Of a stretch of DNA of 64,000 nucleotides, positions 47,515-60,151 are shown piece by piece. Below the pieces are notes generated by a model. It saw only the letters and a list, made by a program, of their open reading frames with translations, was not told the DNA's origin and searched no databases. This DNA is from Myroides odoratimimus (lineage in GTDB: Bacteria > Bacteroidota > Bacteroidia > Flavobacteriales > Flavobacteriaceae). Both the position numbers and the translations under genes were made by a program. Positions within the stretch are counted from its first letter, which is position 1. Every line of letters begins with the position of its first letter. Location of the stretch: positions 186,001-250,000 of the forward strand of contig NZ_BCMQ01000002.1 of assembly GCF_001485415.1 (NCBI RefSeq), in the 5' to 3' direction.

Positions 47515-49041
47515 TTATTTCAGAGCTCTAGTTTGATATAGATCCGTACGTCTATCTTTTTTGATACGTACACTACCGTGCTCGTGTAGTTCTTTTAGTA
47601 AGTCTACATCCACATCTACGATAAGTGTCATCTCTGTATTAGGTGTTGCTTCTGCTTTTACCCCATTTGTTGGGAAGGCAAAGTCAGATGGAGTAAGTAC
47701 AGCTGCCTGAGCGAACTGTATATCCATATTATTCACCTTCGGTAGGTTACCCACACATCCAGCTATCGCCACATAACACTCATTCTCGATCGCTCTAGCA
47801 GCAGCACAGTTTCTCACACGAGTATATCCATTCTGCGTATCTGTAAGGAATGGAACGAATAAGATATCCATCCCTTGATCTGCTAGTAATCTAGACAATT
47901 CTGGGAACTCCACATCATAGCATATCATGATACCGATCTTACCACAGTCTGTATCGAAGGTCTGTATCTTAGATCCTCCTCTCATACCCCAGTAGTGTAC
48001 TTCGTTAGGAGTGATATGGATCTTAGAATACATCTCGTATGTACCATCTCGCTTACATAAGAATCCTACGTTATATAAGATACCATCTACTAAGTATGGC
48101 ATACTTCCTGTGATGATATTGATATTATAAGAGATAGCAAACTCCTGAAACTTCTTGCGTATAGAGTCAGTATATCTTGCTAATTCACGTATTGCATCTG
48201 CCTCAGATAAGTGGTTATAGTCAGCCATAAGTGGTGCTGTAAACAACTCTGGGAACATAGCGAAGTCACTCTCATAGTCTGATACCGCATTGATAAAGAA
48301 TTCTGCCTGATCGAAGAACTCTTGTAGATCGTTTAGCGGTCTCATCTGCCACTGTATCAGCCCTAGTCTGATTACACTTTTTTTAGCATTGATCAGCTGT
48401 ACATCTTTCTCATAGTAGATATTATTCCACTCTAGAAGTACTGCATATTCCTTAGAACTCGTGTCTCCCTCTAGGTAATTGCGCATTAGGCGTACCATGT
48501 GGAAGTCGTTAGCCATCTGGAATGACATCACAGGATCGTGTATTTCTTTTGTTTTTACTTTTTCTAGATATTGCTTAGGCGTTAGCTCATCAGCATATTT
48601 AGAATATTTAGGGATACGCCCTGCGAATACGATAGACTTCAGATTTAACTGTTCACACATTTCTTTACGCGCATCATATAACCTTCTTCCTAATCTAAGT
48701 CCTCTATACTTAGGATGGATGAATACGTCTATACCATATAGTACATTTCCTTCCGGATTATGCGTGCTAAAGGTAGAATATCCTGTAATCTGCTCATAGG
48801 TATGGGCAGACATTGCCTGTTTTTCATCAATAATAAGTGACAAAGCTGACCCTACTACAACACCATCTACTAAAACGACAAGCTGTCCTTCTGGAAAGAC
48901 TTCTAATAATTGTTCGATTTCATCTTTGTTCCAGTACGAATCTTCTAGCCCTTGGTATGATTCGAGCATTGATTTTTTTAGCTCTAAATAATCGTCAATT
49001 AATAAATTTCTTAATTCTACTTTATTGATAGTAGTCTCCAT
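47515..49041 (-). CDS. GNAT acetyltransferase-nitrilase superfamily fusion protein
   Basis: A 508-residue two-domain protein. Residues about 8-205 are a GNAT fold with the acetyl-CoA loop region HPKYRGLRLGRRLYDARKEM (about 123-142). Residues about 218-508 are a carbon-nitrogen hydrolase with a full catalytic triad: Glu in DFAMFPELFTAP (about 266-277), Lys in MYSKIHITPNE (about 343-353) and Cys in GIMICYDVEFPEL (about 382-394). The frame is open to 49083; METTINKVELRNLL at 49041 is the natural start, downstream of a TTACTTTG-like box at 49081-49088. Substrate unknown; the pairing suggests an amine or amide that is also acylated. Confidence 0.88.
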   Translation of the reverse strand: METTINKVELRNLLIDDYLELKKSMLESYQGLEDSYWNKDEIEQLLEVFPEGQLVVLVDGVVVGSALSLIIDEKQAMSAHTYEQITGYSTFSTHNPEGNVLYGIDVFIHPKYRGLRLGRRLYDARKEMCEQLNLKSIVFAGRIPKYSKYADELTPKQYLEKVKTKEIHDPVMSFQMANDFHMVRLMRNYLEGDTSSKEYAVLLEWNNIYYEKDVQLINAKKSVIRLGLIQWQMRPLNDLQEFFDQAEFFINAVSDYESDFAMFPELFTAPLMADYNHLSEADAIRELARYTDSIRKKFQEFAISYNINIITGSMPYLVDGILYNVGFLCKRDGTYEMYSKIHITPNEVHYWGMRGGSKIQTFDTDCGKIGIMICYDVEFPELSRLLADQGMDILFVPFLTDTQNGYTRVRNCAAARAIENECYVAIAGCVGNLPKVNNMDIQFAQAAVLTPSDFAFPTNGVKAEATPNTEMTLIVDVDVDLLKELHEHGSVRIKKDRRTDLYQTRALK

Positions 49042-49134
49042 AATGAATTTTTTTGTTTGCAATTTACGAATAAAAGAAAACAAAGTAAATGAGAAGTTTG
49101 GTTAAATATTCAAATAAGTGTTAAAAAATGGGGC

Positions 49135-49142
49135 TATTTTTG
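49135..49142 (+). promoter_or_regulatory. -7 box (TATTTTTG) for ssb
   Basis: An exact TAnnTTTG giving a start near 49149, about 55 bases before the SSB ATG. Confidence 0.45.
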
Positions 49143-49203
49143 ATATTGTTTCTATTGAACAAAGCTATATGTAATAAAATATTAACCATTAAAAAAAACA
49201 GTT

Positions 49204-49539
49204 ATGAGTTCAATAAAAAACAAAGTGCAATTAATTGGCAGGGTTGGACAAGACCCAGAAGTGAAAATGTATAAATCAAATAAAAAGCGTGCTACCTTCT
49301 CACTTGCGATAAATGATGTGTATTATAACGATGCTGGAGAACGAGTAGAATCTTGTAATTGGCATAATATTACAGTCTGGGGGAAGCTAGCCGACATTGT
49401 TGAAAAGTTTGTTAATAAAGGAAAAGAAATTGCTGTCGAAGGTAAGTTAGTTAATCGTAGCTTTGAAGATAAAGATGGTAATCAGCGCTATGTTACCGAA
49501 ATTGCTGTTTCAGAATTAGTTTTTCTAGGCAGTAAGTAA
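49204..49539 (+). CDS. ssb: short single-stranded DNA-binding protein without an acidic C-terminal tail
   Basis: A 111-residue OB-fold SSB. Motifs: NKVQLIGRVGQDPEVK (about 6-21), ATFSLAIND (about 30-38), NWHNITVWGKLADIVEKFVNKGKEIAVEGKLVNRSFEDKDGNQRYVTEIAVSEL (about 53-106). It ends right after the OB fold at LVFLGSK, so the flexible linker and the acidic DDDIPF-type tip that recruits repair and replication proteins are absent. Housekeeping SSBs are 150-180 residues; this is most likely an accessory paralogue, or one that works without those partners. Monocistronic. Confidence 0.9.
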   Translation: MSSIKNKVQLIGRVGQDPEVKMYKSNKKRATFSLAINDVYYNDAGERVESCNWHNITVWGKLADIVEKFVNKGKEIAVEGKLVNRSFEDKDGNQRYVTEIAVSELVFLGSK

Positions 49540-49739: not shown

Positions 49740-50429
49740 GTGGATAAAATATTAGTTATCGAAGATGATATTCGCGTAGCAGAATTACTTCAGCGCAGTC
49801 TAGAGGAACAAAACTTTGAAGTAGATGTAGCTTATGACGGATACTTAGGGAAGAAACTTGCCTTGCAGAAACCGTATGCACTAATCATAACAGATGTAAT
49901 CTTACCTAAGATCAATGGTATCGATCTGTGTAAGGAGATTAAGGCTACCTTACCTCATATCCCTATCATTATGCTTACAGCACTAGGTACTACAGATGAT
50001 AAGGTAGAGGGATTCGATGCAGGGGCAGATGACTATTTAGTCAAGCCATTTGAGCTAAGAGAACTTTATGTACGTATACGTGCATTGCTTAAGCGCTTCG
50101 AACATATACAGTCTACTGACGCTCATCTTTTAAAATATGCAGATTTAGAATTAGACCTAAACGAAAAGGTATTTAAGAGAAACGGACAAGAGATACATCT
50201 GACTCCTAAAGAGTTTAACCTACTGCAGTATATGATGGAGAATCCTGAGCGTGTACTATCTAGAACAGAGATTTCTGAGAAAGTATGGGATACACACTTC
50301 GATACAGGAACTAACTTTATCGATGTATACATCAACTATCTGCGCAAAAAGATAGAAATAGACCCTTCTAAGAAAGTGATTCATACCAAATCTGGTATGG
50401 GATTTATACTAAAGAGTAATGAGAATTAA
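49740..50429 (+). CDS. OmpR-family response regulator
   Basis: A 229-residue regulator. The receiver (about 1-118) has acidic pocket IEDD, phosphoacceptor Asp52 (LIITDVILP), and VKPF with the conserved Lys. The DNA-binding domain (about 130-228) is a winged helix of the OmpR type (LTPKEFNLLQYMMENPERVLSRTEI, VWDTHFDTGTNFIDVYINYLRKKI). An upstream TTG at 49710 would add 10 residues, but GTG 49740 (MDKILVIEDD) is the normal start. It overlaps the kinase gene by 11 bp. Its likely target is the direct-repeat array before mgtC. Confidence 0.9.
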   Translation: MDKILVIEDDIRVAELLQRSLEEQNFEVDVAYDGYLGKKLALQKPYALIITDVILPKINGIDLCKEIKATLPHIPIIMLTALGTTDDKVEGFDAGADDYLVKPFELRELYVRIRALLKRFEHIQSTDAHLLKYADLELDLNEKVFKRNGQEIHLTPKEFNLLQYMMENPERVLSRTEISEKVWDTHFDTGTNFIDVYINYLRKKIEIDPSKKVIHTKSGMGFILKSNEN

Positions 50430-51777
50430 GACTAGACTTACCTTATTGTTTACCTTACTAGTGGCATCTATATTATTAGTATTTGCTGTAGTAGTGTATT
50501 GGTCATCGTCTAAGAATAGGGAAGTGGAGTTCTTTGAAGAGTTAGAGAAGGAAGCCATCACTAAGGCTAAGCTATATCTAGAGACAGAGGTAAAGTCATC
50601 TACACTACATAAGATATACAGATATAATAATGAAGTCATCAATGAGGTACAGGTAGCTGTATATGACTTTGACTTTAATCTATTATACCACGATGCAGAA
50701 GAAATCGATAGTGTCAAGGAGACTAAAGAGATGATCGATCAGATCGCTTCACAAGGACGTGTACACCTATTCCAAGATGACTGGCAGGTGATTGGTATAG
50801 TGTATAACAGTGGAGGTCAGGACTATGTAATCACAGCCATCGCTCTAGATCAGTACGGATATACGAAGCTGCACAATCTTTTTCTGACGATACTCGTGTT
50901 GAGCATTGTGTCCTTGATTGTTATTTTCTTTGTGGGAAGCTTCTTTGCAGAGCGTGTTCTACGTCCATTGAAGCTAATGAATGAAGAGATTAATAATATC
51001 ACGGCTACTAATCTAGATTTGCGAGTGAGTACTGAGGCTAATCAGGATGAGCTGAGCCGATTAGGAAATACATTTAATACGATGTTAGACCGACTAGAAC
51101 AGTCTTTTGATTCGCAGAAGCAGTTCGTGTCGAATATCTCACATGAGCTACGCACTCCATTAGCAGCAGTGATAGCAGAGTTAGAGTTATCACTTTCTAA
51201 AGAACAAGACACCGCTAGCTATATCAGAACAATAGAGAACGCTTTATCAGATGCGAAGAAATTGGTACGATTATCGAATAGTTTATTAGACTTCGCGAAG
51301 GCGAGTTATGATCCTACCGAGATTGTATTCAAGCCTACTAGAATAGATGAGGTGATATTAGATGCCTGTCAGAAGATACAGAGGGGAAATGCTGCATATA
51401 CCTTTAGCTTTATGATAGATGAAGAGATAGACAGCGAAGAGTTAGTGACGGTACGAGCAAACCCTTACTTACTGGAAGTAGCGATTATTAACTTGTTAGA
51501 GAATGCGTGTAAGTACTCCGATAATCATCATGGCAAGGTGAGTATTTCTAATCTGAATAATGCTGTAGTGATCAAGATAGCTGATGAAGGATTAGGGATG
51601 AGTGCAGAGGATCTAGACGGGATCTTTAAACCATTCTTTAGAGGTGAGAACGGAAAACACTTAGATGGAAATGGTATCGGACTTTCATTGACCAAGAAAG
51701 TTATTGATTTACATAAAGGTACTATTACAGTCATTTCAGAGATAAATAAAGGTACAGAGTTTACGATAACCTTATAG
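50419..51777 (+). CDS. sensor histidine kinase
   Basis: A 452-residue membrane kinase. Two TM helices (about 8-28 and 155-177) enclose a roughly 125-residue extracytoplasmic sensor. A HAMP segment follows (ERVLRPLKLMNEEI, about 180-193), then HisKA with phospho-His242 (SNISHELRTPLAAV), and HATPase_c (NLLENACKYSDN, about 356-367; DEGLGMSAEDLDGIFKPFFRG, about 393-413; GNGIGLSL, about 420-427). All catalytic boxes are intact. Its signal is unknown; the adjacent mgtC-mgtE and RND genes suggest metal or envelope sensing. Confidence 0.92.
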   Translation: MRIKTRLTLLFTLLVASILLVFAVVVYWSSSKNREVEFFEELEKEAITKAKLYLETEVKSSTLHKIYRYNNEVINEVQVAVYDFDFNLLYHDAEEIDSVKETKEMIDQIASQGRVHLFQDDWQVIGIVYNSGGQDYVITAIALDQYGYTKLHNLFLTILVLSIVSLIVIFFVGSFFAERVLRPLKLMNEEINNITATNLDLRVSTEANQDELSRLGNTFNTMLDRLEQSFDSQKQFVSNISHELRTPLAAVIAELELSLSKEQDTASYIRTIENALSDAKKLVRLSNSLLDFAKASYDPTEIVFKPTRIDEVILDACQKIQRGNAAYTFSFMIDEEIDSEELVTVRANPYLLEVAIINLLENACKYSDNHHGKVSISNLNNAVVIKIADEGLGMSAEDLDGIFKPFFRGENGKHLDGNGIGLSLTKKVIDLHKGTITVISEINKGTEFTITL

Positions 51778-51794
51778 TACAACCATATAATAGC

Positions 51795-51829
51795 AGAAAG
51801 CACTCCTAGTAGGGGTGCTTTTTTTTGTA
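51795..51829 (+). terminator. terminator after the two-component operon
   Basis: AAGCACTCCT and AGGGGTGCTT pair with one G-T pair, followed by T8. Confidence 0.86.
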
Positions 51830-51907: not shown

Positions 51908-51984
51908 TGTGGTCGGCATGTGGTCGGCTAGTGATGGGCATTTGGTCGGCTTATAAGTACCAAAAATAGCCCATCACTAGCCTA
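51908..51984. repeat. inverted repeat with three GGTCGGC units
   Basis: TGGTCGGC-type units occur three times within about 40 bp (about 51910, 51922 and 51943). GGCTAGTGATGGGC (51926-51939) pairs perfectly with GCCCATCACTAGCC (51969-51982) across a 29-base loop. It is G-rich compared with its AT-rich surroundings and lies between the two-component genes and the mgtC promoter. It may be a dispersed palindromic element or a regulatory fold. Confidence 0.6.
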
Positions 51985-52080
51985 TCATACCTATATCATT
52001 AGGCAATCATGTGAACTTAAAACGAAATAATGTCAAGCAGAGTGATGATTTTATCGCTTTTGGAACGCTATATGTGGGTA

Positions 52081-52120
52081 TTCTAATAGGATTCTAATTT
52101 TTTTCTAAAAGCTTTCTAAT
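52081..52120 (+). promoter_or_regulatory. array of four 11-bp-phased TTCTAA repeats (putative response regulator site)
   Basis: TTCTAAT at 52081, TTCTAAT at 52092, TTCTAAA at 52103 and TTCTAAT at 52114, each exactly 11 bp after the previous one. That is one helical turn and is the arrangement bound by OmpR/PhoB-type response regulators as head-to-tail dimers. The array ends 22 bp before the -7 box of mgtC, so the last repeat sits around -40, overlapping the missing -33 element. Confidence 0.7.
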
Positions 52121-52142
52121 AGCCTCTAGAAGGGGTAATACC

Positions 52143-52150
52143 TACTTTTG
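52143..52150 (+). promoter_or_regulatory. -7 box (TACTTTTG) for mgtC-mgtE
   Basis: An exact TAnnTTTG without a TTG -33 element at normal distance, consistent with a promoter that needs an activator bound at the TTCTAA array. Start near 52157, leader about 115 bases. Confidence 0.55.
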
Positions 52151-52156
52151 CCAAGT

Positions 52157-52271
52157 CAAAAAAAATAAGAGATGGAAACAGAGTCCACATTAGTTAAACG
52201 GGAATGTTAAACCTTCTTTCTGAATATGCATGATAACAATGTAGCTCAGAAAGAGCAAAAAAATAGTTATC
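52157..52271 (+). promoter_or_regulatory. structured mgtC leader with competing stems
   Basis: CTTTCTGA (52216-52223) can pair with TCAGAAAG (52246-52253), and ATGATAAC (52230-52237) with GTTATCAT (52266-52273), which covers the first two bases of the mgtC ATG at 52272. The order A-B-A'-B' makes the stems mutually exclusive, or a pseudoknot. Upstream is a direct repeat GTTAAAC at 52193 and 52206. This suggests start-codon control, but it is unproven. Confidence 0.45.
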
Positions 52272-52967
52272 ATGTTAATTACAGTATTTATAGGAAGATT
52301 AGCTCTTGCTTTTATTTTAGGAGCTCTTATCGGGGCAGAGAGACAAGTGAGACAAAAAAGTGCGGGTCTAAGAACCAATACGCTAGTGAGTATCGGTGCA
52401 GCAGGCTTCGTGTTGATGGCGTATACCATCGGAGATATGGCTGTGGGGAGAGTAGCCTCTTATGTAGTAAGTGGTATCGGATTCTTAGGAGCTGGAGTGA
52501 TTATGAAAGACGGATTCAGTATCCGTGGACTGAACACTGCTGCTACGATCTGGTGTTCGGCTTCAGTAGGGTCTATGTGTGCTGTAGGCTTATGGATGGA
52601 AGCGATAGCGATGACAGTATTGATTTTATTAGCACATATTTCGCTTAGACCTATTGGCAATATGATTAATAAACTCTCTTTTGAGAGTGAGACAGACTCA
52701 GCTGAGGTTCATTACGAGATTATCGTAGGATGTAAAGAGCAGGTAGAGAATCATATCAGAGTAATGGTGTTAGAGAATCTACGCGCTCAGAAAGATCTTC
52801 AGCTACGTTCATTAAAAAGTACAGATAATGGCAATCCTGCTTTTTCTTACCTGAAGTTTGAGATACTATGCATCGGTAAGAAAGATGATATTCTAGAGCA
52901 GATCACGAGTAAAGTGTCTTTAGAATACGGAGTATCAGAAGTGACATGGGAATTGACAGCGTATTAA
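52272..52967 (+). CDS. MgtC/SapB family membrane protein
   Basis: A 231-residue protein. The MgtC core (about 1-135) has LALAFILGALIGAERQ (about 8-23), the conserved LRTNTLVSIGAAGFVLM (about 33-49), YVVSGIGFLGAGVIMKDG (about 64-81) and GLNTAATIWCSASVGSMCAVG (about 85-105), with about five TM helices. A cytosolic C-terminal ACT-like domain (about 145-231) follows. MgtC proteins modulate Mg2+ limitation responses and F-type ATPase in pathogens. It lies 21 bp before mgtE. A 140-residue alternative frame beginning at 52226 is a shadow. Confidence 0.9.
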   Translation: MLITVFIGRLALAFILGALIGAERQVRQKSAGLRTNTLVSIGAAGFVLMAYTIGDMAVGRVASYVVSGIGFLGAGVIMKDGFSIRGLNTAATIWCSASVGSMCAVGLWMEAIAMTVLILLAHISLRPIGNMINKLSFESETDSAEVHYEIIVGCKEQVENHIRVMVLENLRAQKDLQLRSLKSTDNGNPAFSYLKFEILCIGKKDDILEQITSKVSLEYGVSEVTWELTAY

Positions 52968-52988: not shown

Positions 52989-54386
52989 ATGAGAATGCAT
53001 AACAGAGATTTAAAAAATCTACAGAAGATAGCAACTGATATGAACAGTATGAAGAAGATAACGATGATGCTGCCTGTGATCAAGAAGATGCCTATTATCG
53101 ACATCAGCGAGCTACTGAGTAGAGTGGCTAATGATGATTTGGTTCTTGTGTTTAATGAGTTTACAATAGCAGAGCAAGGGGAGATTTTTGCAGAATTTCC
53201 GTTGGTGAAGCAGTTAGGATTCTTTCAGAGAGTGAGTAAGAAGCTATTCGCTAGGATATTCGAAGAGATGCCATCAGATGCTAGAGCAGATCTGTTTCAG
53301 CTGATGACACAGCAGGAGCAGGTAGACTTACTACCTTATCTAACGAAGAATATACGCGAGAATGTGCTAGCACTTAGTTCGTATCCTGCGCATACAGCGG
53401 GGGGAATCATGATTACAGATTTCGCTACAGTATCTAAAGACATGACGTGCTTCGAAGCGATACAACAAGTGCGCAAAGACTCTCCTTCTAAAAAGACGAT
53501 ATACTATGTATATGTAGTGAATGAGGATAAGACTTTAGTAGGCTTTATTACTTTAAAAGATTTGATCATAGCTGAGCCTGATGTATTAGTTAAGGACGAA
53601 TTACATACAGAGTTTGTATTTGGTTTTTTAAGTGATAGCAGTGAGTCAATAGCGAAGAAAATAGATAAGTATCAGCTAGTAGCCTTGCCGATACTAAACG
53701 ATAAGAAACAGCTAGTAGGAATAGTGACACATGATGAGGCACTAGATGTGATACAAGCAGAACATACAGAAGATATGGAACGCTTCATGGGAATCATTGG
53801 TACGAATGAGGAGTCTGATTATAATCAGACGAGTATATTCAACCATTTTAAGAAGAGAGTGTTTTGGCTAGTGACACTAGCAGTAATCGGGATAGGAGCA
53901 GGGATGATCATCTACAGTTATGAAGCGACATTAATGCAGCTGATGATTCTAGCCTTATACATGCCGATGATAGCCTCTACAGGAGGTAATGCAGGGAGTC
54001 AATCTGCGACAGTAGTGATCAGATCACTGGCACTAGGGCAGATTACAGTAAAGTCATGGCTAAAGGTATTGTGGAAAGAGCTAAGGATAGCACTGATGTT
54101 ATCTTGTTTTCTTGGTTTAGTCGCTTTTGGTATCGTAGTGTTTCTAAACTGGGGGACAGAGATTCCGACAGGTTACACACTAGCGTCCATAGGAGGAGTG
54201 ATCGCGTTAGCCCTGTCGCTACAGGTGATTACCTCTACGATAATAGGAGCTTTGTTGCCGATGTTGGTTCGCAGGTTTAACGGAGACCCTGCAGTAGCAG
54301 CTAGCCCAGCTATCACTACGATCGTAGATATATCGGGGTTACTGATTTACTTTAGTATAGCAGCTCATTTTTTCAACCTAAAGTAG
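52989..54386 (+). CDS. mgtE: magnesium transporter MgtE
   Basis: A 465-residue MgtE channel. N-terminal helical domain (about 30-145) with LLPYLTKNIRENVLALSSYPAHTAGGIM linking to a CBS pair (about 150-270; YVVNEDKTLVGFITLKDL and LPILNDKKQLVGIVTHDEALD), a plug helix, then five TM helices (about 292-462) with the pore region MPMIASTGGNAGSQSATVVIRSLALG and GDPAVAASPAITTIVDISGL. The CBS and N domains gate by intracellular Mg2+. Second gene of the mgtC-mgtE unit, making that unit a Mg2+ module. Confidence 0.93.
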   Translation: MRMHNRDLKNLQKIATDMNSMKKITMMLPVIKKMPIIDISELLSRVANDDLVLVFNEFTIAEQGEIFAEFPLVKQLGFFQRVSKKLFARIFEEMPSDARADLFQLMTQQEQVDLLPYLTKNIRENVLALSSYPAHTAGGIMITDFATVSKDMTCFEAIQQVRKDSPSKKTIYYVYVVNEDKTLVGFITLKDLIIAEPDVLVKDELHTEFVFGFLSDSSESIAKKIDKYQLVALPILNDKKQLVGIVTHDEALDVIQAEHTEDMERFMGIIGTNEESDYNQTSIFNHFKKRVFWLVTLAVIGIGAGMIIYSYEATLMQLMILALYMPMIASTGGNAGSQSATVVIRSLALGQITVKSWLKVLWKELRIALMLSCFLGLVAFGIVVFLNWGTEIPTGYTLASIGGVIALALSLQVITSTIIGALLPMLVRRFNGDPAVAASPAITTIVDISGLLIYFSIAAHFFNLK

Positions 54387-54600
54387 CATGATTATTGTAG
54401 ATTACACTTAACATAAATTATATAAAAAGGAATGCAAAAATTACGCTCTCGATGCGATCTGTCAGCAGAAGGATAATAAAAATTCATAAAATGCTTCGTT
54501 ATTTAATATGGAATCTCCGTATTATGAAGTAACTTTAAAGTGTTTTTAAGATAAAAACTTAGTGAAATAATAAATAAGGTATTAATTAAAAATAAACATA

Positions 54601-55719
54601 ATGGCTAAAACATTAAAACTAGCAGGTATTTTAGGAGTTAGCATATTATTGAGCTATTGTTCTGAGAAGAAAGAGCAGGCAGCAGATAGTGCTCAGTTTA
54701 CAGTAGAAAATAAGATCATCACTCTAACTGAAACTTCAAATCTAAAAGACAGAATAAAAACAAGTAAGGTATCAGAAGAAGACTTTACTTTCGATCTAGT
54801 TACTGCTGGGGTAGTGAAAGCTATTCCCAACCATTATGCAGAAATAGCATCTCCTTTCTCAGGGAGAATAGTCAAATCATTTATCAAACTTGGGCAAAAA
54901 GTGAGTGAGAATACTCCTTTATTTGAAGTGTCTTCACCTGACTATTTTGAGGCTCAAAAGGATTACTTCGATTCAAAACAAGAGTTTAAACAAGCAGCTC
55001 TAAACCTTAAAAGACAAGAAGACTTACTGAACAACGGTGTTGGGGTAAGACAGGAGTTCGAAGAGGCAGAGACAGAATACTCTATCGCTAAGGCGGCTTA
55101 TGATAACGCTCGTGCAGCATTAAAGATATATAGTGTAGATGCTAGCTCACTAGTACTAGGACAGGCATTGACAGTGCGCTCTCCTATAGCTGGAGAGGTC
55201 TTAGAGAACAACCTAGTGATAGGACAGTTCATTAACGATGAGGCTGACCCAGTAGTGAAGATCGCTTCACTAGGTAAAATATGGATAGTAGGTAAAGTGA
55301 AAGAAAAAGATATCAATCACTTAGCTAAACTAAACAAAGTACAAGTGGAACTTGCAGCATATCCTGATGCTCCACTATCGGGTACTATCTATCATATCAA
55401 CGAGATCGTGGATGAGGAGACTAGAAGTATAGATGTACTGATAGAAGTGGATAATGAGAAGAGAATTCTAAAACCGGGTATGTATGTGAGTGTTCGTTTT
55501 ATCGATCAACCAGAACCAGTAATCTTAGTGCCTTCTAGAGCAGTCTTACAAGGTGAAGATAACTCATTCGTATTCGTGAAGGTAGGAGAGAATAAGTATG
55601 CTAAGAAGAGCATCGTGATCGGAGGAGTGTCTGGAGATAAGACCGTTATCCTATCAGGATTAGACAAACAAGATGAGGTAGTAAGTGAAGGAGGAATCTA
55701 CTTGCCACAAGCTATTTAA
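54601..55719 (+). CDS. RND efflux periplasmic adaptor (CzcB/CusB type)
   Basis: A 372-residue membrane-fusion protein. A lipoprotein-like signal ends LLSYCSEKK (Cys about 20, with an unusual Tyr before it). The barrel-sandwich is split by an alpha hairpin of two long helices (about 110-180), with the lipoyl-type halves SPFSGRIVKSFIKLGQKVSENTPLF (about 84-108) and RSPIAGEVLENNLVIGQFINDEAD (about 194-217), then a beta-barrel and membrane-proximal domain. It bridges the inner pump and TolC. First gene of a metal-efflux operon. Confidence 0.9.
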   Translation: MAKTLKLAGILGVSILLSYCSEKKEQAADSAQFTVENKIITLTETSNLKDRIKTSKVSEEDFTFDLVTAGVVKAIPNHYAEIASPFSGRIVKSFIKLGQKVSENTPLFEVSSPDYFEAQKDYFDSKQEFKQAALNLKRQEDLLNNGVGVRQEFEEAETEYSIAKAAYDNARAALKIYSVDASSLVLGQALTVRSPIAGEVLENNLVIGQFINDEADPVVKIASLGKIWIVGKVKEKDINHLAKLNKVQVELAAYPDAPLSGTIYHINEIVDEETRSIDVLIEVDNEKRILKPGMYVSVRFIDQPEPVILVPSRAVLQGEDNSFVFVKVGENKYAKKSIVIGGVSGDKTVILSGLDKQDEVVSEGGIYLPQAI

Positions 55720-55736
55720 TAATAAACAATAATACA

Positions 55737-58700
55737 ATGAAGAAAGGTATAATAGATACAGCTATTCACAAAAGATGGCTTGTAGCAGCGTTGTTTGCTT
55801 TGCTGTGTATATTTGGATATTATTCTTGGAAACAATTATCAATAGAAGCTTATCCAGATATAGCAGATACTACTTCTCAAGTAGTAACACAAGTGCCAGG
55901 GCTGGCAGCAGAAGAGATAGAATTACAGATTACCATTCCGATAGAGCGCGCTCTTAATGGTATGCCTGGAATGCACGTGATGCGTAGTAATAGTACATTC
56001 GGACTGTCTATGATCACGATAGTATTCGCTGATGGAGTAGATGACTACTTCGCTCGTCAACGAATCCAAGAGCGATTAAACGATGTAGAGTTGCCTTATG
56101 ATGCGACTCCTGAATTAGATCCGCTGACATCGCCTATCGGTGAGGTATATAGATATATCATAGAGGGAGATGGCTATAGTCTTAGAGAATTAACGGATTT
56201 ACAAAACTTCGTGATTATCCCTAAGCTTAATCAAGTACCTGGTGTAGCTGAGGTAACTAACTTCGGTGGAATCACTACTCAGTTTCAAATCGAATTAGAT
56301 CCACATAAATTAGAACAATACGGTCTATCGCTAAGCGATGTAACAGAGACGATAGAAGAGAATAACGTCAATGCAGGAGGAAGTGTTCTAACGAGAGGAG
56401 ACCTTGGGTATGTGGTGAGAGGTATTGGGTTGATTAAAGATTTAGAGGATTTAGGTAAAATCGTTGTTAAGGCAGAAGATGGTATACCTGTATTCTTAAA
56501 CGATTTAGGTCGCTTAAAATATGGAAATGTAGAGCGCAAAGGTATTCTTGGTTTTACAGATAGAGAAAGAGATTATTCTGATAGTATCGAGGGGATTGTA
56601 CTGTTATTAAAACACGAAAACCCATCTGTAGTATTAGATAAGATACACCAATATGTAGATGAACTGAACAATGGTTTATTGCCAGAAGGTGTTAGAATAC
56701 ACACTTTCTTAGATCGTACAGATTTAGTAGATACGACATTACATACTGTGTCTACTACGCTAATCGAAGGAATTAGTTTAGTAGTGATTGTATTGATTGT
56801 ATTCTTAGGAAGTTGGAGAGGAGCGCTATTAGTAGCGATTACGATCCCTGTATCTCTGTTGTTTGCATTTATCATGATGCACTTCACAGATATACCTGCT
56901 AACTTACTTTCGTTAGGAGCGATTGACTTCGGTATTATAGTGGATGGTGCTATCGTGATGATGGAGTCCATACTGAAGAAGAGGGAGGACAATCCAGAAG
57001 AGGAATTAAAAGAGAAGTCTATAGCACAGCGTACCAAAGAGGTAGCTAAGCCTATCTTCTTCGCTACAATCATTATTATCACAGCATACTTACCACTATT
57101 CGCTTTTGAACGTGTAGAGAAGAAGTTGTTTACACCGATGGCGTTTACAGTAGGATATGCCTTGATAGGGGCATTATTAGTAGCCTTGATTTTGATACCA
57201 GGTCTTGCGTATGCGGTGTATAGAAAGCCTAGAAAGATCTACCACAATAAGTGGTTAGAGAAACTAACGAATGTATATCACAATAGAATTATCAAGATTG
57301 TAAATAAGCCAAAGCAAGTATTCGTACCGTTATTAGTTGTTTTAGCGATTACAATAGGATTGTCAATGAAGGTAGGTAAAGATTTCTTACCTCCATTAGA
57401 TGAAGGTTCTATCTGGCTTCAAGTAACCTTACCTCCTGGTATCTCACTAGAGAAATCAAAAGAGATGAGTGATACACTACGTGCTAGAACTATGAAGTAT
57501 GATGAGGTAACGTATATCATGGTACAGTCTGGGCGTAATGATGATGGAACAGACCCATTTACTCCATCACATTTCGAATGTTCGGTAGGTATCAAGCCTT
57601 ATAAAGAATGGCCTCGTGGTAAGACTAAAGATGATTTAATCGAAGAGTTAGCAGCAGAGTATGAGTCTTTACCTGGATTTACAGTTGGGTTCGCTCAGCC
57701 GATGATCGATGGGGTAATGGATAAGATATCTGGAGCGCATAGTGAATTAGTAGTGAAGGTATATGGAGAAGATTTTCACGAGACTAGACGTATAGCGAAT
57801 GAGGTATTAGGTACACTGCGTACGGTAGATGGAGCGGTAGATTTAGCAATAGATCAAGAGCCACCATTACCACAGCTACAGATCCATGCGAATAGAGATA
57901 AGATAGCTCAATATGGATTAAACGTATCTGACGTTGCAGAACTTATCGAGGTGGCTATAGGTGGTAAGGCAATATCACAGATATTTATCGGAAATAAAGT
58001 ATATGACATCAGTGCTAGATATACTGAAGAGAGTAGAAATACACCAGAGAAGATCGCTAACTTAATGTTGACGTCTAGTACAGGTGCTAAGATTCCGCTG
58101 TCTCAGGTAGCAGATGTTAAGACGAGTACAGGAGAGAGTACGATCACTCGTGAGATGAATAGACGTCACTTAACTGTAAAACTAAACGTGCGTAATAGAG
58201 ACTTAGCGTCACTATTAAAAGAAGCGCAACAAAAGATAGAAAGCAATATCACGTATGATCATGAGAAGTTCCACATCGAATGGGGTGGACAGTTCGAGAA
58301 TCAGAATAGAGCGTATAGCCGTTTGGCAGTAATTGTTCCTTTGACCTTGTGTTTAATGTTTGTATTACTATACGGAGCTTTTGGACAGTTTAGACAAGCT
58401 GGATTATTGATGATCGTTGTACCGTTAGCTTTATTTGGAGGGATGTTAGCCTTGAACATTAGAGGGATGTCATTGAACGTATCTTCAGCAGTAGGATTTA
58501 TTGCGTTGTTTGGGGTTGCGATACAGAATGGGGTGATTATGATCTCCCATATCAATGATCTCCGCAGAAGAGGTATAGCATTAAAAGAGGCAGTACTAAC
58601 AGGTGCAGAAGAGCGTTTCAGACCTGTATTAATGACGGCTACAGTGGCGGTATTAGGGTTATTCCCTGCTTCGTTAGCTACAGGTATCGGTTCGGATGTA

Positions 58701-58847
58701 CAGAGACCTCTAGCAACTGTGATCGTTTATGGTCTATTATTCGCTACTGTTCTTACACTATTTGTATTACCTGCCTTGTATTATATGGTAGAACGCAAAT
58801 GGGGTAGTGATAGCGACTTCGTAAAAAGTGAAACAGACGAAAATTAG
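55737..58847 (+). CDS. heavy metal efflux RND pump (CzcA/CusA family)
   Basis: A 1036-residue HME-RND pump with 12 TM helices and two large periplasmic loops. The TM4 signature DFGIIVDGAIVMMESIL (about 395-411) with DFG...D is the HME-type proton relay. Other marks are ETYPDIADTTSQ-like start (SIEAYPDIADTTSQVVTQVPG, about 32-52) and ATGIGSDVQRPLATVIVYGLL near the end. CzcA exports Co, Zn or Cd and CusA Cu or Ag; the methionine ladder of CusA is not obvious, so divalent metals are a better guess. Confidence 0.92.
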   Translation: MKKGIIDTAIHKRWLVAALFALLCIFGYYSWKQLSIEAYPDIADTTSQVVTQVPGLAAEEIELQITIPIERALNGMPGMHVMRSNSTFGLSMITIVFADGVDDYFARQRIQERLNDVELPYDATPELDPLTSPIGEVYRYIIEGDGYSLRELTDLQNFVIIPKLNQVPGVAEVTNFGGITTQFQIELDPHKLEQYGLSLSDVTETIEENNVNAGGSVLTRGDLGYVVRGIGLIKDLEDLGKIVVKAEDGIPVFLNDLGRLKYGNVERKGILGFTDRERDYSDSIEGIVLLLKHENPSVVLDKIHQYVDELNNGLLPEGVRIHTFLDRTDLVDTTLHTVSTTLIEGISLVVIVLIVFLGSWRGALLVAITIPVSLLFAFIMMHFTDIPANLLSLGAIDFGIIVDGAIVMMESILKKREDNPEEELKEKSIAQRTKEVAKPIFFATIIIITAYLPLFAFERVEKKLFTPMAFTVGYALIGALLVALILIPGLAYAVYRKPRKIYHNKWLEKLTNVYHNRIIKIVNKPKQVFVPLLVVLAITIGLSMKVGKDFLPPLDEGSIWLQVTLPPGISLEKSKEMSDTLRARTMKYDEVTYIMVQSGRNDDGTDPFTPSHFECSVGIKPYKEWPRGKTKDDLIEELAAEYESLPGFTVGFAQPMIDGVMDKISGAHSELVVKVYGEDFHETRRIANEVLGTLRTVDGAVDLAIDQEPPLPQLQIHANRDKIAQYGLNVSDVAELIEVAIGGKAISQIFIGNKVYDISARYTEESRNTPEKIANLMLTSSTGAKIPLSQVADVKTSTGESTITREMNRRHLTVKLNVRNRDLASLLKEAQQKIESNITYDHEKFHIEWGGQFENQNRAYSRLAVIVPLTLCLMFVLLYGAFGQFRQAGLLMIVVPLALFGGMLALNIRGMSLNVSSAVGFIALFGVAIQNGVIMISHINDLRRRGIALKEAVLTGAEERFRPVLMTATVAVLGLFPASLATGIGSDVQRPLATVIVYGLLFATVLTLFVLPALYYMVERKWGSDSDFVKSETDEN

Positions 58848-58855
58848 GATTAGGT

Positions 58856-60151
58856 ATGAATGTTATTAGAAAATATATACTAGTAGGATTATTAGCATTG
58901 TTCTGTAATGAAGTTGTGGTAGCACAACTTCATACAGACAATGTAAGTGATAAGACAGCATTGACATATAAGGAGTATCTTCATAAGATGTCAATGAACA
59001 ACTTAGGATATGCAGCAGCGAAGTATAATATAGATATTGCAGAAGCTGAGGTACAAGCAGCTAAGATGTTCCCAGACCCTGAGCTGAGTTTTGGTTGGTT
59101 TGATAATCAACAGAAGCGTATGCAGATGGGTTATGGCTTTGAGGCAGAGTTATCATGGGATTTAGAATTAGGTGGTAAGCGCAAGGCAAGAAAGAATTTA
59201 GCTGCAGATCAGAAGACATTAGCAGAATTAGAGTTGCAAGAGTTCTTCCAGACTATGCGTGCAGAGTCTACTATCTTATATTTAGAAGCCTTGCAGAATA
59301 AGATGTTGTTTGATATACAACGCGACTCTTATGAGTCTATGAAGCAAGTAGCTAAGTCTGATAGTATTCGTTATACATTAGGGCAGATCAGCAAAGTGGA
59401 TGCTATCCAAAGTAACTTAGAAGCTAAAGGGATGTATAATGAGTTACAAGATGCAGATGACGCTTGGGAGAATAGCTTGATAGAGATCAGAAACGTGATC
59501 AGTAAACAGAGAAACGATACGATATATTTGCCTCAGGGAGACTTCAACAAGTTTGATAGATTATTCTCTTTAGATGACTTGATTGTGACTGCTCAGAACA
59601 ATAGAGCTGACTTCCTTGTCGCTAGACAGAATAAGGTGGTAGCGAGTAAGCAAGTCTCTTTAGCTAAAGCAGAACGTGCGATAGATTTAGGACTTAACTT
59701 CGGGGTAGAGAACAACTCTTTTGTAAAGAATGCTATTGCTCCTACACCTGGTAATACGGTGGTTAAAGCAGGTTTTTCTATTCCGCTGAAGTTCTCTAAT
59801 AGAAAAGAATCAGGATTAAAAACTGCATTATACGAGGAACGTCAAGCTCATCTAGAATATGACTTTATAGAGCTAGAGTTAGAGAAAGAGATCACTCAAG
59901 CATATCGTAACTATCTAACGAAACAAAAGCAGATCAATAGGTTTGAAAAAGGGATGTTAGAAGAGGCTAAACAGGTATACGAAGGGATCAAGTATAGCTA
60001 TCAAAGAGGGGCGAGTAGCCTATTAGAAGTGTTGGATGCACAACGTACTTATAACGAAACACAACAGGCTTATGCAGAGACACTATTTGGGTATGCATCT
60101 GCTCTAGTGGAGTTAGAGAACGCAGTGGGTATTTGGGATATTGATTTTTAA
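58856..60151 (+). CDS. TolC family outer membrane efflux protein
   Basis: A 431-residue outer-membrane factor. Signal peptide about 1-24 (NEVVVAQL). Two TolC repeats of long helices with PDPELSFGWFDNQQ (about 75-88) and coiled stretches rich in E, Q and A; YQRGASSLLEVLDAQRTYNETQQAYAETLF (about 383-412) is the typical end of the second repeat. It completes the tripartite pump with the two genes upstream (8-bp gap). Confidence 0.92.
   Translation: MNVIRKYILVGLLALFCNEVVVAQLHTDNVSDKTALTYKEYLHKMSMNNLGYAAAKYNIDIAEAEVQAAKMFPDPELSFGWFDNQQKRMQMGYGFEAELSWDLELGGKRKARKNLAADQKTLAELELQEFFQTMRAESTILYLEALQNKMLFDIQRDSYESMKQVAKSDSIRYTLGQISKVDAIQSNLEAKGMYNELQDADDAWENSLIEIRNVISKQRNDTIYLPQGDFNKFDRLFSLDDLIVTAQNNRADFLVARQNKVVASKQVSLAKAERAIDLGLNFGVENNSFVKNAIAPTPGNTVVKAGFSIPLKFSNRKESGLKTALYEERQAHLEYDFIELELEKEITQAYRNYLTKQKQINRFEKGMLEEAKQVYEGIKYSYQRGASSLLEVLDAQRTYNETQQAYAETLFGYASALVELENAVGIWDIDF

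Follow-up and report, generated by a model that had tools for sequence, protein, structure and literature searches.

Four copies of TTCTAA stand before an operon of Myroides odoratimimus in which mgtC and mgtE are followed by the genes of a heavy-metal pump, which raises the question of what protein reads these repeats and to what signal the operon responds. Direct-repeat operators of the OmpR/PhoB family, such as the pho box, comprise equally oriented half-sites at 11-base intervals and replace the distal promoter element. The present array resembles the pho box in its 11-base, same-orientation half-sites, in occupying the place of the distal element and in having a regulator gene nearby, but differs in its half-site (TTCTAA), its four copies and a fixed distance of 23 bases to the Bacteroidota -7 box TAnnTTTG. 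Our main reading, to which we assign a probability of about 0.78, is that the array is a real, conserved and functional-looking operator of the OmpR/PhoB kind, belonging to the regulator encoded upstream and to a joint operon for Mg and other metals. We know of no described operator with a TTCTAA half-site, and the open-licence papers searched yielded no description of TTCTAA response-regulator operators in Bacteroidetes. The features of the window, meaning the whole 64,000-nucleotide stretch that was analysed, are collected in Table 1.

Table 1. Features of the window around the TTCTAA array, with positions counted from its first base.
Feature	Position	Strand	Basis or remark
OmpR/PhoB-family response regulator	49740-50429 (ORF start maybe 49710)	+	Response_reg and Trans_reg_C above Pfam cut-offs
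Histidine kinase with periplasmic sensor domain	50419-51777	+	HAMP, HisKA, HATPase_c
Terminator-like hairpin between kinase gene and array	51795-51823	+	pattern scan, consensus match only
TTCTAA half-site 1	52081-52086	+	direct match; kept in relatives
TTCTAA half-site 2	52092-52097	+	direct match; kept in relatives
TTCTAA half-site 3	52103-52108	+	direct match; kept in relatives
TTCTAA half-site 4, promoter-proximal	52114-52119	+	direct match; kept in relatives
-7 box TACTTTTG	52143-52150	+	23 bases past array, without -33 TTG; offset common in relatives
Leader ORF METESTLVKREC, 12 codons, followed by its stop codon (within the positions given)	52172-52210	+	motif common to mgtC-first operons
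Stem arm A1, predicted to pair with A2	52214-52223	+	computed
Stem arm B1, predicted to pair with B2 (mgtC start)	52228-52237	+	computed
Stem arm A2, predicted to pair with A1	52246-52255	+	computed
Stem arm B2, predicted to cover the mgtC start codon	52266-52275	+	computed
mgtC (MgtC with C-terminal domain)	52272-52967	+	MgtC and MgtC_SapB_C above Pfam cut-offs
mgtE, magnesium transporter	52989-54386	+	TIGR00400, 304 bits (cut-off 233)
czcB-like periplasmic adaptor	54601-55719	+	HlyD_D23; RND_mfp above cut-off
czcA-like heavy-metal RND pump	55737-58847	+	TIGR00914, 942 bits (cut-off 701)
czcC-like outer-membrane channel	58856-60151	+	OEP above Pfam cut-off

The repeats are exact and their phase is 11, as the sequence-only reading of this DNA had stated: TTCTAAT occurs at 52081, 52092 and 52114, and TTCTAAA at 52103. 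Its assignment of the spacing to the OmpR/PhoB type also finds support in sequence comparison, since the half-sites lie in phase, relatives keep them, and the four-copy pattern, allowing up to 3 mismatches, has a single match in the window, 100 dinucleotide shuffles giving none. Across the whole genome (4.23 Mb) the same pattern gave three matches and the control none. These are the window array (0 mismatches), a second array at G000:C3:254073-254111 (2 mismatches) and a weak match at C1:376250 (3 mismatches) inside an ORF of the opposite strand. A genome search for the two-copy word TTCTAA-N5-TTCTAA, which had been suggested as a check, proved unspecific, with 11 matches against 5 in the reversed control; the exact pairs left once the C3 array is set aside are lone pairs, several of which overlap ORFs. 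With two mismatches the pair occurs in the window at chance (29 vs 28.4 expected), and single pairs were rejected as a regulon marker. An inverted 6-4-6 core, the operator type of CzcR and AgrR, was not found at the array, which consists of four direct repeats. A search of the surrounding 500-base stretch against plasmids gave no match. Between the kinase gene and the array (51910-51990) the word GGTCGGC is repeated and an inverted repeat (CTAGTGATGGGC / GCCCATCACTAG) is present; terminator-like patterns number 4 between 51700 and 54700, against 1.2 expected.

Conservation of the array in the mgtC regions of relatives had been named beforehand as the test by which the proposal could fail, and the array was indeed found before relatives' mgtC operons. 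Allowing up to 2 mismatches, it occurs in 31/199 genomes of the genus sample (reversed control: 3 genomes, once each). It occurs in 56/393 genomes and 8/105 genera of the order sample, with 3 control matches, and in 28/392 genomes of the phylum sample, with 9 control matches in 5 genomes. This spread is patchy, since none of the order-sample genomes from the same family but another genus has the array. Among the relatives that keep it, the half-site cores are retained while the spacers and flanks change. MgtC in general was rejected as the conserved partner, and the array occurs only at the operon type beside the regulator; a match to MgtC was found in 22 of 61 genus genomes, 18 of these being partial and 37-49% identical.

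The regulator upstream of the array, which had likewise been predicted as OmpR-type, is present and combines a receiver domain with a Trans_reg_C winged helix. Close homologues, defined by E <=1e-72 (a cut-off chosen after the identities were known), amount to 24 genes in 22 of the 199 genus genomes, and the array lies beside every one of them: 23 with at most 2 mismatches and one, in G111, with 3. The regulator of the window is 87% identical to that of G193. Viewed by genome, the array (at most 2 mismatches) is found in 21/22 genomes with the regulator and 10/177 without it (Fisher p 7e-20, relatedness ignored). The array might alternatively be bound by another DNA-binding protein, its linkage to the regulator merely reflecting a shared operon island, and some arrays do lack a regulator gene in the fetched stretch (L094, L097, L098, L100 and L118 among them). 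The constancy of the association at all 24 close homologues, though the genes downstream differ, argues against this, as does its persistence in a class of porin loci with divergent gene order, and the class of promoter spacing tracks the regulator clade; we consider another protein improbable. Ahead of the regulator the window has a GNAT-nitrilase fusion gene and an ssb-like gene (47515-49539), an arrangement shared by most of the fetched near relatives. More distant regulators, 42-46% identical, accompany arrays that head a bestrophin operon (L083) or DUF1275 operons (L114 and L116, with offsets of 11 and 12).

The -7 box without a -33 element that had been described is present (TACTTTTG), and relatives keep no TTG; the 22 bp given between array and box is correct when counted from the last TTCTAAT, and becomes 23 from the last TTCTAA. 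TAnnTTTG alone occurs in the window at chance (66 vs 74 expected), so the weight rests on its fixed distance in relatives. Among 81 fetched sites, found with a pattern that did not ask for the -7 box, TAnnTTTG lies at offset 23 in 56 and at offset 33 in 12, with offsets 22, 12 and 11 once each; the other 10 have no TAnnTTTG at one single place within range. This count leaves out L117, L119 and L120 and admits L169 at 3 mismatches. A scan of named genomes, whose array pattern was equally blind to the box, covered at least 120 stretches; of the 82 arrays in the 80 loci listed, 55 have offset 23, all of them in Bacteroidota, and 24 have no TAnnTTTG at one single place within range. The orders listed with offset 23 are Flavobacteriales, Bacteroidales, Marinilabiliales, Sphingobacteriales, Cytophagales, Chitinophagales and Saprospirales. 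In a logo of the 56 distinct offset-23 sites, the TTCTAA cores are near invariant and the spacers mostly weak; YRGC follows directly after the array, no TTG appears, and C or T follows TAnnTTTG.

A further alternative, that the array arose by chance or is a functionless tandem repeat, draws some credit from the near-chance frequency of single pairs and from the 12 arrays flagged as plain tandem repeats among the 27 listed without offset 23. Of these 27, 6 lie outside Bacteroidota, and 3 are counted in both groups. We regard chance or a functionless repeat as refuted by the shuffles, by the retention of the cores amid changing spacers and flanks, and by the spacing that is fixed in relatives. 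Plain tandem repeats of TTCTAATCTCG or TTCTAATATGG are numerous in the Bacteroidales MAG JAAZLV, where they are unlinked to the operon type (L210, L229, L231, L250, L256, L258, L276, L282).

TAnnTTTG has been mapped at -12 to -5 in F. psychrophilum (PMC9723704), which, if it applies here, would place the proximal half-site of the offset-23 class at about -41 to -36 and extend the array out to -74. The offsets observed, 11-12, 23 and 33, differ in steps of about one helical turn. Their distribution follows the regulators: on a quick tree of 96 regulators a single clade of 77 rows (SH-aLRT 99) contains all 72 offset-23 rows, its remaining members having offset 22 or lacking a box. A paralogous clade (83) unites the seven offset-33 rows, with the offset-11 and -12 rows placed separately, and the three states need 2 changes on the tree. 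The tree was built by a quick method, has long branches, and was made without L179, whose array lies inside a gene, and without fragments outside 190-300 residues. The genome's own second array on C3 (L118, C3:247000-261000) has offset 33 and precedes an outer-membrane factor, an adaptor and a CusA/CzcA pump, with no linked regulator within 14 kb. A regulator about 100 kb away, at G000:C3:154190-154855, groups with the offset-33 rows (100) and is predicted to read the array at C3:254073. The offset-23 pattern itself has one exact occurrence in this genome, that of the window, and 4 with 2 mismatches against 1 in the control; a genome scan allowing up to 2 mismatches found no second clear offset-23 target.

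The genes behind the array are more varied than the sequence-only reading proposed. A box dedicated to Mg2+ genes finds no support, since the same box heads CzcBAC operons without Mg genes, and porin operons. Across the 56 offset-23 sites, Mg transport genes together with Czc genes account for 29, Czc alone for 10, Mg alone for 3, a porin-like gene for 12 and other genes for 2. Mg genes, with mgtC, mgtE or mgtA frequent, are thus present at 32 of the 56, and the array is, on the sequences compared, not a Mg-only box. The porin-like protein (442 residues) matches nothing in Pfam and resembles ExtI weakly, at 47 bits against a cut-off of 150. In the porin class the array mostly lies between this gene and a divergent regulator-kinase pair (L084, L104, L106, L109, L172, L185, L186 and others). 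The P-type ATPases encoded beside mgtC in L103 and alone behind the array in L097 are Mg2+-translocating, and such an ATPase directly follows the array in several loci of Bacteroidales, Pedobacter and Chitinophaga. Within the window, the 214-base gap between mgtE and czcB (54387-54600) contains no TTCTAA and no TAnnTTTG that would mark a second promoter before czcB. The same gap holds a TTCATAA / TTATGAA inverted repeat.

In a rival reading, the array is a heavy-metal operator of the CzcRS/CusRS kind: the kinase would sense an excess of Zn, Co, Ni or Cd, the pump would be the main target, and the Mg2+ transporters would be carried along, perhaps to outcompete the toxic metal, with the operator itself unchanged. 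The best NCBIfam models point this way, with cztR_silR_copR (TIGR01387) for the regulator at 214 bits and cztS_silS_copS (TIGR01386) for the kinase at 195 bits, both below their cut-offs (279 and 293), and with CzcA above its own. CzcBAC alone behind the box is a second argument for it. A third is that the sensor residues His91 and Asp92 are invariant, alongside Asp97, Glu101 and Asp144, in 42 kinases at least 38% identical to that of the window; in 23 more diverse kinases only His91, Asp92 and Asp144 reach at least 90%, and Asp97 and Glu101 do not. Against it stand the pump-less operons of Bacteroidales, Pedobacter and Chitinophaga that are headed by Mg2+ transporters (as seen within 8-kb loci) and the leader before mgtC, discussed below. 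The modelled periplasmic sensor domain (mean pLDDT 79) also has the PhoQ sensor as its best single-domain fold match (Z 10.8, 106 residues, rmsd 3.1), behind an integrative WalK model at rmsd 32.7. The PhoQ match is a weak argument, because PDC domains share this fold and others score Z 8 to 9.8; the absence of CzcS or CusS structures from the best 50 fold matches listed excludes nothing. We judge the heavy-metal operator possible but rather doubtful, and hold the same view of metal excess as the signal; low Mg2+ is the signal we moderately favor.

Two kinds of known two-component system come close to this locus. Like the proteobacterial CzcR, CusR, CopR and AgrR systems, the locus has a regulator-kinase pair next to an RND metal-efflux operon; it differs in missing the cut-offs of those families and in carrying Mg2+ transporters within the operon. 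AgrR is described as apparently acting as a type II activator, and its box as an inverted 6-4-6 repeat to which a further in-phase half-site is sometimes added (PMC7380067), whereas the array here comprises four direct repeats. With PhoPQ, which controls mgtC and mgtA in Salmonella and E. coli, the locus would share two-component control of Mg2+ genes followed by control at the level of the leader. Unlike in PhoPQ, the regulator here is nearer to heavy-metal models, and a metal pump belongs to the operon.

Between the promoter and mgtC lies a feature absent from the sequence-only reading: a short leader ORF followed by two predicted interleaved hairpins, the strongest sign of Mg2+ control at this locus. 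The ORF is very short, carries early acidic residues and precedes a Mg2+ transport gene, in which it resembles the ribosome-destabilizing leaders MgtL and MgtQ. The motif M[DE]x[DE][PS] lies behind 36 of 47 mgtC-first arrays, some of which come from near relatives or match with up to 3 mismatches, whereas among the 85 other arrays that have a -7 box just 1 shows it; the remaining 11 mgtC-first operons lack it. Sorted by first gene, it occurs in 1/23 operons beginning with czcB, 0/15 with the porin, 0/13 with OEP2 and 0/11 with mgtA; the Fisher test of the leader was based on the 68 arrays whose first gene is known and ignored relatedness. Counterparts in relatives read MDPDPYSNYQS, MDTDPSHYYHN, MEADPNRTKFN and similar, and Myroides-type leaders (METES, MDTES) have lost the proline after the second acid. 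For leaders that carry the motif, the distance from the first base of the -7 box to the leader start is 24 to 31 bases. A search for the leader pattern TTTG, 17-27 bases, ATGGANNCNGATCC yielded 36 matches, spread over 35 of 296 order genomes, against 5 in the reversed control, and 15 of the 36 begin 28 bases after the end of an order-sample array. The sole exception to the mgtC-first rule, in the Chryseobacterium-type genome G535 (L195), has MDPDPYSYKKP in a 466-base leader before czcB and no recognizable mgtC in the stretch; this leader is perhaps the leftover of a lost mgtC.

Gaps in the leader alignments are three bases long inside the ORF and of other lengths too behind it. The leader RNA of the window folds better than its shuffles (z -3.4), and the interleaved stem pair reaches p 0.016 against 60 mononucleotide shuffles. 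By the same measure, with 60 shuffles each, interleaving has p <0.05 in 22 of 34 leaders and not in the other 12. The motif is present in 32 of these 34 against 1 of 10,200 mononucleotide shuffles, a rate that is partly circular because the leaders were picked for an acidic second residue; the uncircular figure is 36/47. Covariation of the stems is not above shuffles in one group of leaders (group A2); in another (group A3) pairing survives changes on both sides at three pairs, and one of these belongs to the stem that would hide the start. No match to an Rfam family between 51780 and 52400 attains the gathering score.

In E. coli, low Mg2+ is described as causing ribosomes to drop off at the EPDP motif of MgtL, which turns on mgtA (PMC11282234), and Asp2 and Glu5 of Salmonella MgtQ are described as destabilizing ribosomes and helping to free the mgtB ribosome-binding site (PMC8092293). 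The leader described here shares with these a very short ORF with early acids (at 2 and 4 in MgtL, at 2 and 5 in MgtQ), a Mg2+ transport gene downstream, and perhaps alternative hairpins, those reported for MgtQ hiding a ribosome-binding site. It differs in phylum and in preceding mgtC, mgtA-first operons here are without the motif, and no homology is claimed. The leader could instead be translated for a reason other than Mg2+, such as coupling or another nascent-chain signal, or its acids could serve initiation only, an account we rate as conceivable though below even odds. The loss of the proline in Myroides-type leaders and the lack of the motif in all 11 mgtA-first operons speak for it. 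On the other side stand its position, the acids at residues 2 and 4 and the fact that it is almost confined to mgtC-first operons, as does the reported action of MgtL (Glu2, Asp4) and MgtQ (Asp2, Glu5) through such residues. A leader mechanism that tunes mgtC to Mg2+ has, in our estimation, an even chance of being correct.

Taken with the operator, a mechanism can be proposed. Two regulator dimers, phosphorylated via the neighboring kinase, would bind the four TTCTAA half-sites head to tail, and the regulator bound near -41 to -36 would recruit RNA polymerase from a PhoB-like, class II position, thereby activating a promoter that has a -7 box and no -33 element. The transcript would comprise mgtC and mgtE and would probably read through into the genes of the czcBAC pump. 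Since one transcript would carry both gene sets, Mg2+ import and divalent-metal export would rise together. When Mg2+ is low, ribosomes would drop off while translating the acidic leader, leaving arm A1 free for A2, and with A1:A2 paired the mgtC start would not be drawn into the B1:B2 hairpin. A rationale for the coupling comes from Cupriavidus metallidurans starved of Zn and Mg, in which the rates of Zn import and export are reported as sevenfold and threefold, respectively, an effect attributed to up-regulated Mg2+ importers (PMC11112998). A cell that opens its Mg2+ importers may thus need simultaneous metal export, and the same rationale may hold for Bacteroidota.

Searches of open-licence papers found no Mg2+ regulator described for Bacteroidota and no literature on MgtC with czcA in Flavobacterium; in an iron study in Bacteroidetes, mgtA appears as a table row. 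We tentatively propose, at somewhat less than even odds, that Bacteroidota possess a two-layer magnesium switch, which would comprise a TTCTAA-reading two-component system and a separately evolved MDxD(P/S) leader of mgtC. Arrays at a fixed helical distance would raise Mg2+ import and divalent-metal export together, and in flavobacterial mgtC operons the leader would use Mg2+-dependent ribosome instability to open the mgtC start. The leader peptide, whose function is a candidate one, is the more surprising part. The box and its fixed offset provide a search pattern for a regulon encountered here in gut Bacteroides, Phocaeicola and Prevotella as well as in flavobacteria. They make it testable why one switch serves Mg2+ importers and heavy-metal pumps alike, and whether ribosome-destabilizing Mg2+ leaders arose more than once. 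If the proposal is true, the two-layer logic of enterobacteria (PhoPQ plus MgtL/MgtQ) would have been reached by Bacteroidota with unrelated parts.
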